Below are positions 46,701 to 52,781 of a DNA stretch of 64,000 bases, in pieces. Each line of letters begins with the position of its first letter. Position 1 is the stretch's first letter. The notes under the pieces were generated by a model, which saw nothing but the letters and a program-made list of their open reading frames with translations, did no database searches and was not told the DNA's origin. Source of the stretch: Gracilimonas sp. (lineage in GTDB: Bacteria; Bacteroidota; Rhodothermia; Balneolales; Balneolaceae). The stretch covers positions 1,488,001 through 1,552,000 of the forward strand of contig NZ_JAEPPI010000001.1 in NCBI RefSeq assembly GCF_017641085.1, in the 5' to 3' direction. The position numbers and the translations under genes were made by a program.

Positions 46701-46799
46701 ACATACTTTTAATTTAGAGCAACGGGAATCTAAGTGAAATAATCTGTTCTTAGAAATAAGGTTTCGGTTAAGCGGAAAATTTCTGATTTCAGTCGCTTA

Positions 46800-46828
46800 T
46801 TTCGATAGTTCCTCAAAATCTGTATAAT
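46800..46828 (+). promoter_or_regulatory. Candidate promoter of the P450 operon
   Basis: A TATAAT hexamer (46823-46828) is preceded, 17 bases earlier, by a poor -35 match, TTTCGA (46800-46805). It would give a leader of roughly 100 bases before the ATG at 46939. The -35 is weak, and the phylum often uses a different consensus, so this is tentative. Confidence 0.3.
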
Positions 46829-46938
46829 ATTCCTTGTCAAGCACATAGAAGGTTTTCGGAAGTACTTTTTTGGCCGGTAGATACGAAGTTGCACCCGGCT
46901 GTGCATTTCTTGAATATTTTTTTGATAGGTACGGTGCT

Positions 46939-48303
46939 ATGGAACATTCTACACAAGCCTTAAAACCCCCTCCCGTTGCCGATGGACAGGCTCTTTTCTT
47001 TAATCACCTGTTTAAGTTTAAGTCGGATACGCATGGATTTCTGCAGGAGCAAAGCACGAATATGGGACCTTTGTTTACGGTAAAGCTTCTTTCCAGGGAT
47101 ATTTATGTATTGAATCATCCGGATGCTATTCAGCACGTTCTAGCCGGTAATGCAAATAACTACAGCCGGATGAAGCCCTATTCCATCATGGTTGAGTTAC
47201 TGGGGCGTGGACTGATTACTACCGAGGGTGATGAATGGAAACGCAGAAGGCGTATTGCTCAACCTTCTTTCCACAAAAGAAAGATGGGTGAGCTCTTTGA
47301 TGAGATGCAGCAGACGATCACCCAATTTATTGAACAGAGAGAATTTACCGGGGGCCAATCAACCGATCTTGACAGGGAAATGAGCCAAATTACTATTGAA
47401 GTGCTGAGTAATACCATCCTTAAGAACGACATTGAGTTTGAAACCGAGCAGCTGAAAACCAACTTTGCGCTTGCATGGGATTACCTGTCCCAGAAACGGT
47501 TCCGGTGGACCAAGCTGCTAAATAAACTACCCAGTAAAACAAAATCGAAAGGGCAGCGTGCAATAGCTGATTTAAAGAAATCCATCCTTGAACTCATCGA
47601 AAAACGCAGGACTTCATCAGGAGAATTTAACGACCTGATGGATATGCTGATGAACGCTACCGATGAAGAAACCGGAGATAATCTTTCAAACGAAGAGTTA
47701 CTGGATGAGGTAATCACGCTGTTCACTGCCGGTCATGATACTACAGCCGTGGCTCTTACCTGGAGCCTTTACTGCCTGGCTCATCACCCCAAAGTGGAAG
47801 AAAAAGTCCTCGCAGAAATTGACCGGAACTGGAAAGAAGACGGCTTTCTCTTTGAAGATCTGCGTCATTTCCCGTACCTGAACATGTTTATACGAGAAGT
47901 GATGCGTTTATTCCCTCCGGTCTGGACCTTTGGTCGCCGTTCGCTGGAAGAGGATGAAATTATGGGTTTCAAGATACCGGCCGATGCCTCTGTTACCCTC
48001 CCCTCCATACTCGTGCACCGTAACCCTGAATTCTGGGAAAAGCCCGATGATTTCTATCCTGAGCATTTTACAGAAGAGCGGGTTGCCGGAAGGCATAAAT
48101 ACGCTTACTTCCCTTTTGGGGGTGGACAAAGGCTCTGTATAGGCCAGCATTTTGCACTAATGGAAATACAGCTCGTGCTCATGTTCCTATTGCGAAAATA
48201 CACAGTAACCCTTGCATCCAACAAACCCGCTGAACTCAATCTGTTGATTTCAACAAAGCCCAAAAATCCGATATGGGCAGTATTCACTCCAAGAAATATT
48301 TAG
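46939..48303 (+). CDS. Cytochrome P450
   Basis: Started at ATG 46939 the enzyme has 454 residues, typical for a soluble P450; a TTG at 46870 would add an odd 23-residue extension. All hallmark motifs are present: the I-helix oxygen-binding AGHDTT, the ExxR in REVMRLFPP, the PERF-like FYPEHFTEER, and the heme loop FPFGGGQRLCIG with Cys400. The sequence is closest in style to the CYP4/CYP110-like group, which often hydroxylates fatty acids or terpenoids. No reductase or ferredoxin gene is adjacent. It is first in a four-gene operon, with one base before the next start. Substrate is inferred only from context. Confidence 0.93.
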   Translation: MEHSTQALKPPPVADGQALFFNHLFKFKSDTHGFLQEQSTNMGPLFTVKLLSRDIYVLNHPDAIQHVLAGNANNYSRMKPYSIMVELLGRGLITTEGDEWKRRRRIAQPSFHKRKMGELFDEMQQTITQFIEQREFTGGQSTDLDREMSQITIEVLSNTILKNDIEFETEQLKTNFALAWDYLSQKRFRWTKLLNKLPSKTKSKGQRAIADLKKSILELIEKRRTSSGEFNDLMDMLMNATDEETGDNLSNEELLDEVITLFTAGHDTTAVALTWSLYCLAHHPKVEEKVLAEIDRNWKEDGFLFEDLRHFPYLNMFIREVMRLFPPVWTFGRRSLEEDEIMGFKIPADASVTLPSILVHRNPEFWEKPDDFYPEHFTEERVAGRHKYAYFPFGGGQRLCIGQHFALMEIQLVLMFLLRKYTVTLASNKPAELNLLISTKPKNPIWAVFTPRNI

Positions 48304-48304
48304 T

Positions 48305-49090
48305 ATGAAGAACGCTGCACATACCACCCTTCCCTGGCCTGCATTCAGAGATGATGTTAAAGATTTCCTGGACTTGGCTAAAGACCGCAACTATGCCTAT
48401 GGTTTTTCAGAAGCAGACATCACCCGCATTCATGCTCAACTTCAGCAGAGAAAAGTATCCGGAGAAGAACCACACTCCCTGAGTGCTTACCTGATTTGGT
48501 GTTTGGGCAAAGCGGTAAGTGCACACCCTCAGGTTCAGGCCGTTAAGCATAAAAAGAAACTGGTGGTGTTTGAGGATGTAGATGTGGCCTTGATGATCGA
48601 GAAGAAACTCCCCGATGGTAAAACTTTTCCCTTCCCCTACATCTTTAAAGCAGTTCAGACCAAATCTTTTGAAGAAATTAATACCGAGCTTCGTGAGGCA
48701 AAAGCACTGAGTTTTGAGTCCATCCGGAAAAGGAAAAAATCAGTTATTCCCCGATTTCTTCCCAAGTTCCTCAGGTTATTTATCCTGAAGAAATTGCTCA
48801 GCAACCCGTTTCGGGCAAAAGAAGTAAAAGGAACCATCGCGTTGACAAGTCTTGGCAACGTTCTGAGTAAGCGCAAATTTTGGCCGGTCCCAACCGGACC
48901 ATACCCAATAATTGTAGCCACAGGTGGCGTTTACGATTCCAAAGGCGTGCATTCATCCGGAGTAAAGAAGATGTTATGTTTTTCCTTTTCTCTTGATCAT
49001 GATATTCTAGATGGGGCTCCGGTAGCCCGTTTTGGGAATACCTTTATTGAACTTTTGGAAAGTGCCTCCGGAATAGGGGAAAAAGTATAG
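48305..49090 (+). CDS. Stand-alone 2-oxoacid dehydrogenase E2-type acyltransferase
   Basis: This 261-residue protein resembles the catalytic (CAT) domain of dihydrolipoamide acyltransferases. The signature HxxxDG is intact (DHDILDGAPVARF, His232, Asp236), and the core strand GTIALTSLGNVLSK aligns with the usual GTFTISNLG region. It lacks the lipoyl and E1/E3-binding domains, so it cannot work as a normal E2. A basic insert (SIRKRKKSVIPRFLPKF) near 140-156 looks membrane- or partner-binding. In this operon it may move an acyl group from CoA or a carrier. It is 1 base after the P450 gene and 5 bases before the fusion gene. Confidence 0.8.
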   Translation: MKNAAHTTLPWPAFRDDVKDFLDLAKDRNYAYGFSEADITRIHAQLQQRKVSGEEPHSLSAYLIWCLGKAVSAHPQVQAVKHKKKLVVFEDVDVALMIEKKLPDGKTFPFPYIFKAVQTKSFEEINTELREAKALSFESIRKRKKSVIPRFLPKFLRLFILKKLLSNPFRAKEVKGTIALTSLGNVLSKRKFWPVPTGPYPIIVATGGVYDSKGVHSSGVKKMLCFSFSLDHDILDGAPVARFGNTFIELLESASGIGEKV

Positions 49091-49095
49091 GCATC

Positions 49096-51669
49096 ATGGA
49101 TAAAGTGGAAATCAAATACGGCTTTTGGCCTTATGTAGTTTACCCCGGCACAATGATCATCAGTCTGGGGATGTTTTTTGTACTAATGGCCAATGGCTTT
49201 GAGTTGCTTGCCAGTACCTATATTCCACTTACCTTTGGGGCCTTATCCATTATCTTTTTTGAGCTATACACTCCCCATCAAAAAGAATGGATTTTTGATA
49301 AGCATGATGTCATTAACGACTCACTGTTCATGCTCACCGTCCAAACTATCCTGCCTAAAATCCTCAGCTTCCTCGTTGCCATTTTCATATTACGGATGCT
49401 GGACTATTATGAACTCCAAATTACCGGACTGTGGCCCCATCACTGGTCTATGGCATTCCAGGTGATTTTAATGGTGTTTATTGCCGATTTCTTCCGTTAC
49501 TGGCTGCATAAGTTTTCCCATGAGATTCCATTTCTCTGGAAGTTTCACGCCGTTCACCATTCACCCAAAAAACTATACTGGCTAAATGTGGGGCGATTCC
49601 ATCCTGTTGAAAAAGCACTGCAGTTTCTGGGCGATGCCATGCCGTTCATTATTGTAGGAGTTTCGGAAGAGGTGCTGGCGCTTTACTTTGTTTTTTATGC
49701 GGTTAATGGCTTTTTCCAACATTGCAATATCGAACTGGAAATGGGGCCGCTTAACTATGTAATCAGCGGCCCGCAACTACATCGTTGGCATCATTCCCGA
49801 AAGATTGAAGAATCCAACACCAACTACGGAAACAACATTATTATATGGGATATTCTTTTTGGCACCTACTTTTTCCCAAAACACCGGCTTGTAGATGAAC
49901 TTGGCCTGCTCAACAAAGAGTATCCATTAGATTACCTGTCCCAATTAAAAACTCCCTTCTCCGGTGAAATAGACAAAAAAGCCCTCCCCCTCCAAGGTAT
50001 TTCCGGAATGATTTTGAATACGCTTCTGAAATTTAAAATGAAGTGGATCGAGATTACCCTTTATAACCCTTTGAAAGAACTTGCCCGATCACCTGAGAAA
50101 GTTCAGAAAGAAACATTGTCCTCTATTCTTTTGGAGAATATGAATACTCTTTATGGGAAAGAGTATAATTTTGATAAAATCACCGGTTACGAAAGTTATC
50201 GAGAGAAAGTACCGGTTAGTGAATATGAAGACATCCGGGGCTTAATCGAAAAGCAGGATCTTGAGAAAACAACTTCTTTAACTGCAGAATCTCCCCTTTT
50301 TTATAACCAAACGAGTGGAACAACTGGTCAACCTAAATACCTGCCTGTTTTAAAGAGAACACTGGCATCGTTAAGGAAGACTCAACAGATATTTTCCCTG
50401 GTTCAATACACAGCTTGTCCGGAAGCGTTTTACGGGAAGATCATAGGTTTGGTGAGTCCGGCTATAGAAGGTTATATGCCTTCCGGTAATCCTTTTGGAA
50501 GTGCCTCCGGTCATATTTATAACACCATGCCCTGGCTTGCCCGTAAGAAATACGTTATTCCTAAAGAGGTATTTCAGATTAAAGACTATGAGATAAAATA
50601 TTACATAGTGTGCCGGCTGATGATTGAGGAAAAAGATGTGACGTACCTGGGTAGTGCCAACCCTTCAAGTTTTCACAAACTTCTGGATGTTATCAATCAA
50701 AATTTTAGCCACATTTATAGCGACATCGCTTCAGGAACGTGCAAATACCTCGGAGATTTAGATCCTCGAATTATCGCTGCGGTAAACAGGAGACTAAAAC
50801 CGAATTCAAAAAGAGCTGAAGAATTGGCTCACTTGTTTAGCACCGGCGATCAAATTAGCTACAAAGAAATCTGGCCTTATCTGAAACTCCTGATTACCTG
50901 GACCGGGGGAAGCTGTGGAATCTCTCTGAAAAGTGTACTCCCCAAATTCCGAAATGATATCCGTGTTATTGATCTTGGATATTTATCCAGCGAACTAAGA
51001 GCAACGGTTACGATAAACCCGGCTACGAATGAAGGCGTACCTACGATCGGAGAAAACTTTTTTGAGTTTGTACACAGAGATGACTGGGAGAATGACCGCC
51101 CTGACTTTAAAATGATAGGAAGTTTAGAACAAGGAGAGCAATACTATATTTTTGTAACCACTCCCACCGGTTTATACCGGTACAATATGAACGATATCAT
51201 TGAAATCTCAGGTAAGTTTGAGAATACTCCCACTTTTCGCTTTATACAAAAAGGGAAAGGAGTTACAAATATAACGGGGGAGAAATTATATGTAAGCCAG
51301 GTTATTAATGCCGTAAAAAAAGCAGAACAAGAACTGAACCTTGATTTTCGTTTTTACCAAATGTTAGCTGATGAGAAATCGTCTTTATATGAATTATATA
51401 TTGAACCCGGCGAGAGAATAATTCCTTCTATCTCAGAACTCAGCCGGGTTATTGATACCGCACTGCAAGAACAGAATATAGAATACAAAACAAAAAGGGA
51501 GAGCGATCGGCTGCAGGAGTTGAAACTACATATTCTTGTGCATGGCTGTTATGAAACCTACAAAGATTTTTATTTGAAGCAAGGACAAAGAGAGGGGCAA
51601 TTTAAACCTCAAATTTTACAGTACAAGAGTAACTTTGATTTTAAAATTCAGGAGTTCGTTGCTGAATGA
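49096..51669 (+). CDS. Fatty acid hydroxylase :: GH3 acyl-amide synthetase fusion
   Basis: This 857-residue protein has two enzymes in one chain. Residues about 1-275 are a membrane-bound fatty acid hydroxylase/sterol desaturase domain with di-iron histidine boxes: H138xxxH142, H151xxHH155, H209 and H229xxHH233, among about five hydrophobic helices. Residues about 325-857 match the GH3 superfamily. NQTSGTTGQPKYLPV is the nucleotide loop, YLSSELRATV the second ATP motif, and GLYRYNMNDIIEISG and NITGEKLY mark the domain hinge. GH3 enzymes adenylate carboxylic acids and join them to amino acids or amines. The linker near 280-325 has an amphipathic segment. Stop and next start overlap (ATGA). An oxidised acyl-amide product is inference. 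Confidence 0.88.
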   Translation: MDKVEIKYGFWPYVVYPGTMIISLGMFFVLMANGFELLASTYIPLTFGALSIIFFELYTPHQKEWIFDKHDVINDSLFMLTVQTILPKILSFLVAIFILRMLDYYELQITGLWPHHWSMAFQVILMVFIADFFRYWLHKFSHEIPFLWKFHAVHHSPKKLYWLNVGRFHPVEKALQFLGDAMPFIIVGVSEEVLALYFVFYAVNGFFQHCNIELEMGPLNYVISGPQLHRWHHSRKIEESNTNYGNNIIIWDILFGTYFFPKHRLVDELGLLNKEYPLDYLSQLKTPFSGEIDKKALPLQGISGMILNTLLKFKMKWIEITLYNPLKELARSPEKVQKETLSSILLENMNTLYGKEYNFDKITGYESYREKVPVSEYEDIRGLIEKQDLEKTTSLTAESPLFYNQTSGTTGQPKYLPVLKRTLASLRKTQQIFSLVQYTACPEAFYGKIIGLVSPAIEGYMPSGNPFGSASGHIYNTMPWLARKKYVIPKEVFQIKDYEIKYYIVCRLMIEEKDVTYLGSANPSSFHKLLDVINQNFSHIYSDIASGTCKYLGDLDPRIIAAVNRRLKPNSKRAEELAHLFSTGDQISYKEIWPYLKLLITWTGGSCGISLKSVLPKFRNDIRVIDLGYLSSELRATVTINPATNEGVPTIGENFFEFVHRDDWENDRPDFKMIGSLEQGEQYYIFVTTPTGLYRYNMNDIIEISGKFENTPTFRFIQKGKGVTNITGEKLYVSQVINAVKKAEQELNLDFRFYQMLADEKSSLYELYIEPGERIIPSISELSRVIDTALQEQNIEYKTKRESDRLQELKLHILVHGCYETYKDFYLKQGQREGQFKPQILQYKSNFDFKIQEFVAE

Positions 51670-52781
51670 ACATAGATAAGCTCATAATCAAACCCCTTGA
51701 GATCCCTTTCAATTCAAGCTTTGAACATAGTTCGGCCAAACGTAAAAAAACGCAGGCTGTTTTAGTCGCTGCCAGGACTGAAAAAGGAAACACGGGGCTT
51801 GGGGAAGGTTGCCCCCGGGTATATGTAACAGGGGAAACAGTATTTACATGCATCGATTTCTTTAATAAACATGCTCCTGAAATTAAACGCCATATCCATT
51901 CTATATCTGACCTGAAACATTGGGTTTTCCAAAATAAAACCCTCATCGATAAAAACCCTTCGGCGTGGTGTGCCATTGAACTTTCCATCCTTGATGCGTT
52001 ATCAAAAGACCAGAAAACATCGGTAGAAGCCACGGTTGAAGTACCTGAATTACAACCTGCTTTTCAGTACAGTGCTGTGATTGGGATGAGCAATGAAGCG
52101 GTAGCAAGGAAAAGGATTGAAAAGTTTAATGCACTTGGCTTTAAAGATTTTAAAGTAAAGATATCCGGAAATCTGACTAAGGATAATTCCATACTACAAA
52201 CTGTCAAAGAAATTATCCCAACGGCAACCATCCGATTAGATGCCAATAACCTGTGGAATATCCCGGAACAAGCAGTGAAGTACCTTAACGGACTTACCGT
52301 GACTCCCTCAGCTATAGAAGAGCCTCTTGAAGCAGAGGACTTTGAAGGTCACAGAAAGTTTATTGAACAATCCGGAATTCCCGTAATCCTGGATGAATCT
52401 ATTTACCTGGAAGAGCATTTAGAATCCATTCTGAGTTTTTCAGAAAACTTCATCATTAACCTGAGGGTATCAAAAATGGGAAGTATTCTAAGATCTTTGA
52501 AAATGGCTGAAATGGCTGCCAGTGCCGATATCCCTTTAGTCATTGGCTCACAAGTTGGTGAGACCAGTATCTTAACCCGAGCCGCCCTAACCATTTCAAG
52601 TACATACTCTGACCGGGTCAGAGCTATGGAAGGAGCTTATGGGACTTTACTTTTAGACAGAGATGTAACGGACAAGTCCCTCATGTTTGGCAAAAATGGA
52701 GTAATAAATACCCTTGAGAGCCTTGATTATAAAAAGTTTGGTTTCGGCCTTGTTTATAGAAAAGAGTTCACGGATATATAA
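51666..52781 (+). CDS. Enolase-superfamily enzyme (muconate-lactonizing/epimerase subgroup)
   Basis: This 371-residue protein has a capping domain (1-125) and a TIM-barrel. Catalytic residues of the MLE subgroup are all visible: K163 and K165 (FKVKIS), metal ligands D192 (RLDANN), E218 (IEEP) and D243 (LDES), and K270 (RVSKMGS). Known members include muconate cycloisomerases, dipeptide epimerases and N-acylamino acid racemases. The DxD motif that dipeptide epimerases use to hold the substrate amine is not seen after the last strand; AMEGAYG occupies that area. Racemisation of an N-acyl amino acid made by the GH3 domain would fit, but this is inference. It starts inside the stop of the fusion gene. 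Confidence 0.85.
   Translation: MNIDKLIIKPLEIPFNSSFEHSSAKRKKTQAVLVAARTEKGNTGLGEGCPRVYVTGETVFTCIDFFNKHAPEIKRHIHSISDLKHWVFQNKTLIDKNPSAWCAIELSILDALSKDQKTSVEATVEVPELQPAFQYSAVIGMSNEAVARKRIEKFNALGFKDFKVKISGNLTKDNSILQTVKEIIPTATIRLDANNLWNIPEQAVKYLNGLTVTPSAIEEPLEAEDFEGHRKFIEQSGIPVILDESIYLEEHLESILSFSENFIINLRVSKMGSILRSLKMAEMAASADIPLVIGSQVGETSILTRAALTISSTYSDRVRAMEGAYGTLLLDRDVTDKSLMFGKNGVINTLESLDYKKFGFGLVYRKEFTDI

Follow-up and report, generated by a model that had tools for sequence, protein, structure and literature searches.

A four-gene operon encoding an FAH::GH3 fusion protein in Gracilimonas and its possible role in aminolipid synthesis

Bacterial GH3 enzymes and the Gracilimonas operon

GH3-like genes are widespread in bacteria, being most common in Bacteroidota, and the closest known chemistry to that of the operon described here is bacterial ornithine-lipid synthesis. 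The bacterial GH3 enzyme OlsH, reported in 2025, couples fatty acids to ornithine with ATP, forming N-acyl-ornithine; the serine of its motif 1 (S115) is essential, the ornithine lipid is lost upon deletion of olsH, and the authors expect other amino acids to be the substrates of other bacterial GH3s (PMC12493201). In the literature found, no other bacterial GH3 enzyme of aminolipid synthesis has been characterised with a proven product. When expressed in E. coli, OlsH was active in extracts but not within the cells. The rhizobial OlsE is the hydroxylase of the ornithine headgroup in ornithine lipids (PMC3972451).

The operon is located in a window of 64,000 nucleotides (the whole stretch of DNA analysed) from Gracilimonas sp. 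(assembly GCF_017641085.1, contig NZ_JAEPPI010000001.1, positions 1,488,001–1,552,000, forward strand). It consists of four open reading frames, all on the same strand, as follows:

46701..46938, plus strand: leader, part of the insertion and presumed carrier of the promoter (missing from the empty sites L133 and L134)
46939..48303, plus strand: cytochrome P450, 454 aa, class-E/CYP102-CYP170-like (Pfam p450 1.1e-92; motifs; solved chains)
48305..49090, plus strand: stand-alone E2-type (CAT-fold) acyltransferase, 261 aa (Pfam 2-oxoacid_dh 9.9e-15; model; motif)
49096..51669, plus strand: FAH::GH3 fusion, one chain of 857 aa (FA_hydroxylase and three GH3 domains in Pfam)
49096..50055, plus strand: FAH half of the fusion, aa 1–320, OlsE-like membrane di-iron hydroxylase (Pfam FA_hydroxylase, PF04116, 1.5e-30; OlsE-model bits; tree)
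50056..51669, plus strand: GH3 half of the fusion, aa 321–857, acyl-acid amido synthetase (Pfam GH3, GH3_M and GH3_C; motifs)
51666..52781, plus strand: enolase-superfamily enzyme of the MLE subgroup, 371 aa (Pfam MR_MLE_C 8.8e-27; alignments; model)

The P450 and acyltransferase genes are separated by 1 base (TAG-T-ATG), the acyltransferase gene and the fusion by 5 bases (TAG-GCATC-ATG), and the fusion overlaps the enolase-superfamily gene by 4 bases (ATGA; a gap of -4). The original prediction of a four-gene unit with these gaps is borne out by the open reading frames, the Pfam domains and the arrangement conserved in the sister species. Judging from sequence comparisons, the operon may represent a horizontally acquired GH3-dependent pathway to an aminolipid with a hydroxylated headgroup, in which an OlsE-like hydroxylase would be fused to the amide-forming enzyme; the probability of this reading is estimated at about 0.5.

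A discrete insertion in two sister species

The gene set forms a discrete insertion of 6.1 kb, carried by two of the ten genomes of the genus, i.e. by those of the window's species and its sister species. The latter has the whole set at this place too, in an identical order and with proteins 95–99% identical; in two congeners with the empty site (L133 and L134) the flanking genes are adjacent, lying ~70 bases apart. On casual inspection, neither a mobile element nor a repeat at the boundaries was noticed at this place. Purifying selection acts on each of the four genes (omega about 0.055–0.23), the individual values against the sister species being 0.055, 0.061, 0.094 and 0.226. Based on the same arrangement in a congener and the low omega, the operon is a real and maintained unit and not a chance reading: it is real, acquired and under selection. 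The dS between the two carrier species is 0.10–0.14 for the operon and 0.07–0.21 for the flanking genes; since the former lies within the range of the flanks and omega is this low, the set was already present in the common ancestor of the carriers and has been kept by selection.

Concerning the start of the P450 gene, the stretch 46870–46938 differs from that of the sister species at two positions, each of them an amino-acid change, in contrast to an omega of 0.055 inside the gene; the ATG at 46939 is therefore favoured, and the longer frame starting with the TTG at 46870 was rejected. A consensus scan for a promoter and a terminator of the operon gave matches not above chance, and none was singled out.

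Outside the two sister species, the FAH::GH3 fusion was not found in genomes of the family (92), the class (245) or a sample of the phylum (394), nor among plasmids (72,556 records) and viral contigs; the scan across all species of GTDB relied on short peptide patterns matched exactly, which detect close relatives only. A 922-aa frame in the genome G499, considered as a second fusion, was rejected as an open frame of high GC content that bears no similarity to FAH. The co-occurrence of these genes in relatives, the lack of which was to refute the original prediction, fails for most of the phylum, the set being common to only one sister species; this sparseness is read as that of a rare unit gained recently, not of a chance assembly. 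No description of this four-gene combination was found in the literature searched, in agreement with the earlier statement that no described cluster has such a composition.

Affinities of the GH3 and FAH halves

The GH3 half contains the N, middle and C domains of the family (GH3 PF03321 4.7e-58, PF23571 2.3e-16 and PF23572 9e-17, respectively) and matches plant GH3 chains at 8e-30. Its three nucleotide motifs are all intact—TSGTTGQPK (406–414), YLSSE (629–633) and GLYRYNMND (692–700)—motif 1, which harbours the essential serine in OlsH, being thus present. These features support its predicted role as the amide-forming step, as had been proposed from the outset. With 73 bits against the OlsH model NF052613, the equivalog cutoff of which is 620 bits, the GH3 half was rejected as an OlsH orthologue; ordinary GH3s of the same taxonomic family, with 252–265 bits, score above it.

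The closest relatives of the GH3 half come from rumen and gut Bacteroidales (33% identity over the full length, clade support 0.999) and sit in PlsC-HAD-GH3 cassettes at six of the seven loci, the seventh ending at a contig edge. An aminolipid is therefore suggested again, PlsC-type enzymes being the O-acyltransferases (OlsA) of the classical ornithine-lipid pathway. The cassette, conserved in the Bacteroidales loci L062–L068 (e.g. L067:6424–9674), is itself likely to be a second route to aminolipids that depends on GH3; no description of its product was found. It shares with the operon the closely related GH3, located there beside a lyso-lipid acyltransferase, but this GH3 is unfused and accompanied by no P450, E2-CAT or enolase gene. 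The gene contexts of ordinary GH3s from Balneolaceae and Bacteroidota revealed no common partner gene.

The OlsH/OlsI/OlsG system of Singulisphaera acidiphila (PMC12493201) has in common with the Gracilimonas operon a GH3 with a presumed ATP-dependent N-acylation, encoded in an operon together with an acyltransferase and a headgroup modifier. However, the acyltransferase is an α/β-hydrolase there and of the E2/CAT type here, no OlsI-type α/β-hydrolase being present among the four genes, and the headgroup modifier is a methyltransferase there and an OlsE-like hydroxylase fused to the GH3 here. The Gracilimonas operon further includes genes for a P450 and an enolase-superfamily enzyme, and its GH3 is, as the scores above indicate, far from OlsH.

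The strongest competitor of the aminolipid reading, although on balance unlikely, is a secondary-metabolite route close to the view of the original prediction, in which the acid joined to an amine by the GH3 would be non-fatty or modified by the P450, and tailoring by the remaining enzymes would give a product for secretion or signalling instead of a membrane lipid. Plant GH3s conjugate hormones, GH3 genes do occur in natural-product clusters—a Streptomyces plasmid cluster (L099:1–11290) combines a type I PKS, a P450, an aminotransferase and a GH3—and the rare and patchy distribution of the operon suits secondary metabolism. The GH3 half is, however, only family-level kin of the Streptomyces GH3, its nearest relatives being found beside lipid acyltransferases, and the insertion is without an exporter, carrier protein or regulator.

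With regard to the FAH half, it contains the His boxes HKFSH, HAVHH and HRWHH, as OlsE does, and its best curated match is the OlsE model NF052566, aligned over the full length with 199.9–204 bits. Since any FAH obtains some score with this model, control FAHs were scored too: rhizobial OlsE reached 476–548 bits, five sterol-desaturase-type proteins from other phyla 151–168 bits and the query's closest counterparts among Bacteroidota FAHs 105–121 bits. In the tree, the FAH half clusters with OlsE and the proteins from other phyla (support 1.0), apart from the Bacteroidota FAHs, and branches outside the group of OlsE and the metal-island FAHs. Being nearer to OlsE than the controls and yet positioned outside the OlsE subgroup, it is considered OlsE-like and not OlsE; as an OlsE orthologue it was rejected (204 bits versus the equivalog cutoff of 475 bits). 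Of the FAHs tested it has the highest affinity to OlsE, from which it differs in sequence, with an identity of about 30%, and in the fusion to GH3. OlsE-related genes of the sterol-desaturase family also recur in heavy-metal resistance regions of Actinomycetota and Pseudomonas plasmids (L143, L144, L145 and L147).

The FAH had been expected to oxidise an alkyl chain; the oxidation stands, and its target is sharpened, the FAH half being most similar to an enzyme that hydroxylates an amino-acid headgroup instead of an alkyl chain. Likewise, the proposal of a hydroxylated N-acyl amino acid or amide keeps its direction and is sharpened: a membrane aminolipid is likelier than a diffusible amide, because the FAH half is OlsE-like and a bacterial GH3, OlsH, makes N-acyl-ornithine (PMC12493201).

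As for the host background, neither operon-bearing genome has the domain PF13444 (OlsB/OlsF N-acyltransferase), whereas six of the other eight congeners possess it; the OlsB-like gene adjoins an OlsA-like PlsC at each congener locus inspected (L199, L200 and L201). Both operon species retain the syntenic PlsC acyltransferase gene without the N-acyltransferase. The absence of OlsB from 2/2 genomes with the operon and from 2/8 without it is not significant among these ten genomes (p = 0.13, one-sided). The pattern fits a replacement of OlsB by GH3 in the operon lineage, the same loss being seen in one operon-free congener. The OlsBA pair of N- and O-acyltransferases would yield the same lipid class as the operon, but its enzymes are unrelated to those of the operon and its N-acyltransferase is missing in the two operon-bearing species. 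At the loci L214, L215 and L216 (from the window's species, the sister species and one operon-free congener), the PlsC gene and the flanks are kept and the OlsB-like gene is gone.

The other enzymes and the proposed pathway

The P450 has intact motifs for the heme cysteine (FGGGQRLCIG, 393–402), the I-helix (AGHDTT, 264–269) and ExxR (EVMR, 320–323), its nearest solved chains being 7wzl, 3dbg and the BM3 group. The acyltransferase is a catalytic domain alone, the lipoyl and E3-binding domains of the E2 of 2-oxoacid dehydrogenase complexes being absent. Its motif HDILDG (232–237) corresponds to HxxxDG, with His, Asp and Gly invariant across 14 homologues, and its model (pLDDT 81) superposes on the catalytic cores of E2 enzymes (Z about 21, rmsd 2.5–3.2 over about 196 residues). 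The intact motifs of the acyltransferase, P450 and FAH support the acyl-transfer and oxidation steps predicted originally.

In three genomes of one genus from another family of the same class, a lone E2-CAT gene adjoins, convergently, a P450 gene, the product of which is 27–30% identical to the operon P450. At these loci (L176:4787–7240, L181:7524–9860 and L182:5468–7865) neither a GH3 nor an enolase gene adjoins the pair. The recurrent pairing, which counts as one evolutionary instance, supports a putative joint function of the P450 and the E2-CAT enzyme, plausibly the formation of a hydroxyl that would then be acylated. The neighbourhoods of haloarchaeal lone E2-CAT genes held nothing informative.

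The enolase-superfamily enzyme shares with the dipeptide epimerases and N-acylamino acid racemases of the MLE subgroup the fold, the metal ligands (D192, E218 and D243) and the first catalytic lysine, the KxK lysines being K163 and K165. It differs, however, in the second catalytic lysine, which is Arg267 in both operon species and a lysine in 18/18 non-sister homologues and five aligned solved chains, as well as in the eighth-strand Asp motif (LDG-type in dipeptide epimerases), which is replaced by RAMEGAYG. Because of Arg267, epimerisation with two lysines is unlikely, which weakens the epimerase role proposed earlier, and a one-base elimination or cyclisation would be a better guess. The MLE-subgroup enzymes require a carboxylate with an abstractable alpha-proton, so that an N-acyl amino acid whose carboxylate is free would be the right kind of substrate. 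The model (pLDDT 89.5) has its best fold match, tied with muconate cycloisomerases, in the N-succinyl-Arg/Lys racemase 2p88 (Z 42.7), the substrates of which are N-acylated basic amino acids. This match, together with the retained metal ligands and KxK lysine, would also suit a true racemase of N-acyl amino acids in which Arg267 serves as the second base and which yields a D-amino acid headgroup; this is compatible with an aminolipid and alters just its last step. Such a racemase is nevertheless improbable, in view of both the lysine in all the non-sister homologues and the replaced Asp region, and since YkfB, in which the second-base lysine of epimerases is K268, is impaired by mutating either lysine (PMC5808125).

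Equally improbable is a unit for the oxidation and esterification of fatty acids or sterols/carotenoids, in which the GH3 would only activate an acid (as acyl-AMP or thioester) for the E2-CAT enzyme, with no amino acid involved: hydroxylases of sterols and carotenoids do belong to the FAH superfamily, the class of the P450 is a general one and E2/CAT enzymes work on acyl thioesters, but the other FAHs tested are more distant from OlsE than is the FAH half, and the alpha-proton beside a carboxylate required by the MLE-subgroup enzyme is what an N-acyl amino acid offers.

In the preferred aminolipid pathway, the GH3 half would activate a fatty acid with ATP and form its amide with the alpha-amine of an amino acid, the likeliest candidates being ornithine and other basic amino acids; the resulting N-acyl amino acid would be a lyso-lipid (step 1), the amino-acid headgroup of which would be hydroxylated by the OlsE-like half of the same membrane-anchored chain (step 2). 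The P450 would hydroxylate the acyl chain, providing the OH for esterifying a second chain (step 3), and the second acyl group would be added by the lone E2/CAT-type acyltransferase or by the retained chromosomal PlsC (step 4). Finally, the enolase-superfamily enzyme would attack the N-acyl amino acid at the alpha-carbon that neighbours its free carboxylate, probably with a single lysine as the base, e.g. in the loss of water after hydroxylation or in ring closure, rather than in two-lysine racemisation (step 5). All the substrates and the order of the steps are inferred, steps 3 and 5 being the least certain.

A bolder and rather doubtful version of the aminolipid reading assumes an undescribed class of aminolipids: the fused OlsE-like half would hydroxylate the headgroup of an N-acyl amino acid made by the GH3, the enolase-superfamily enzyme, with Lys165/Arg267 as a novel catalytic pair, would then remodel its alpha-carbon (by dehydration, cyclisation or inversion), and the E2-type acyltransferase, turned to a new use, would esterify the hydroxyl introduced by the P450. 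If the aminolipid reading is true, the P450, the E2-type acyltransferase and the enolase superfamily would be enzyme types new to aminolipid synthesis, and the operon would be a case of one lineage swapping OlsB for GH3. The single FAH::GH3 chain links, by gene fusion, the GH3 enzymes to aminolipids outside the planctomycetes and offers a compact, testable pathway.
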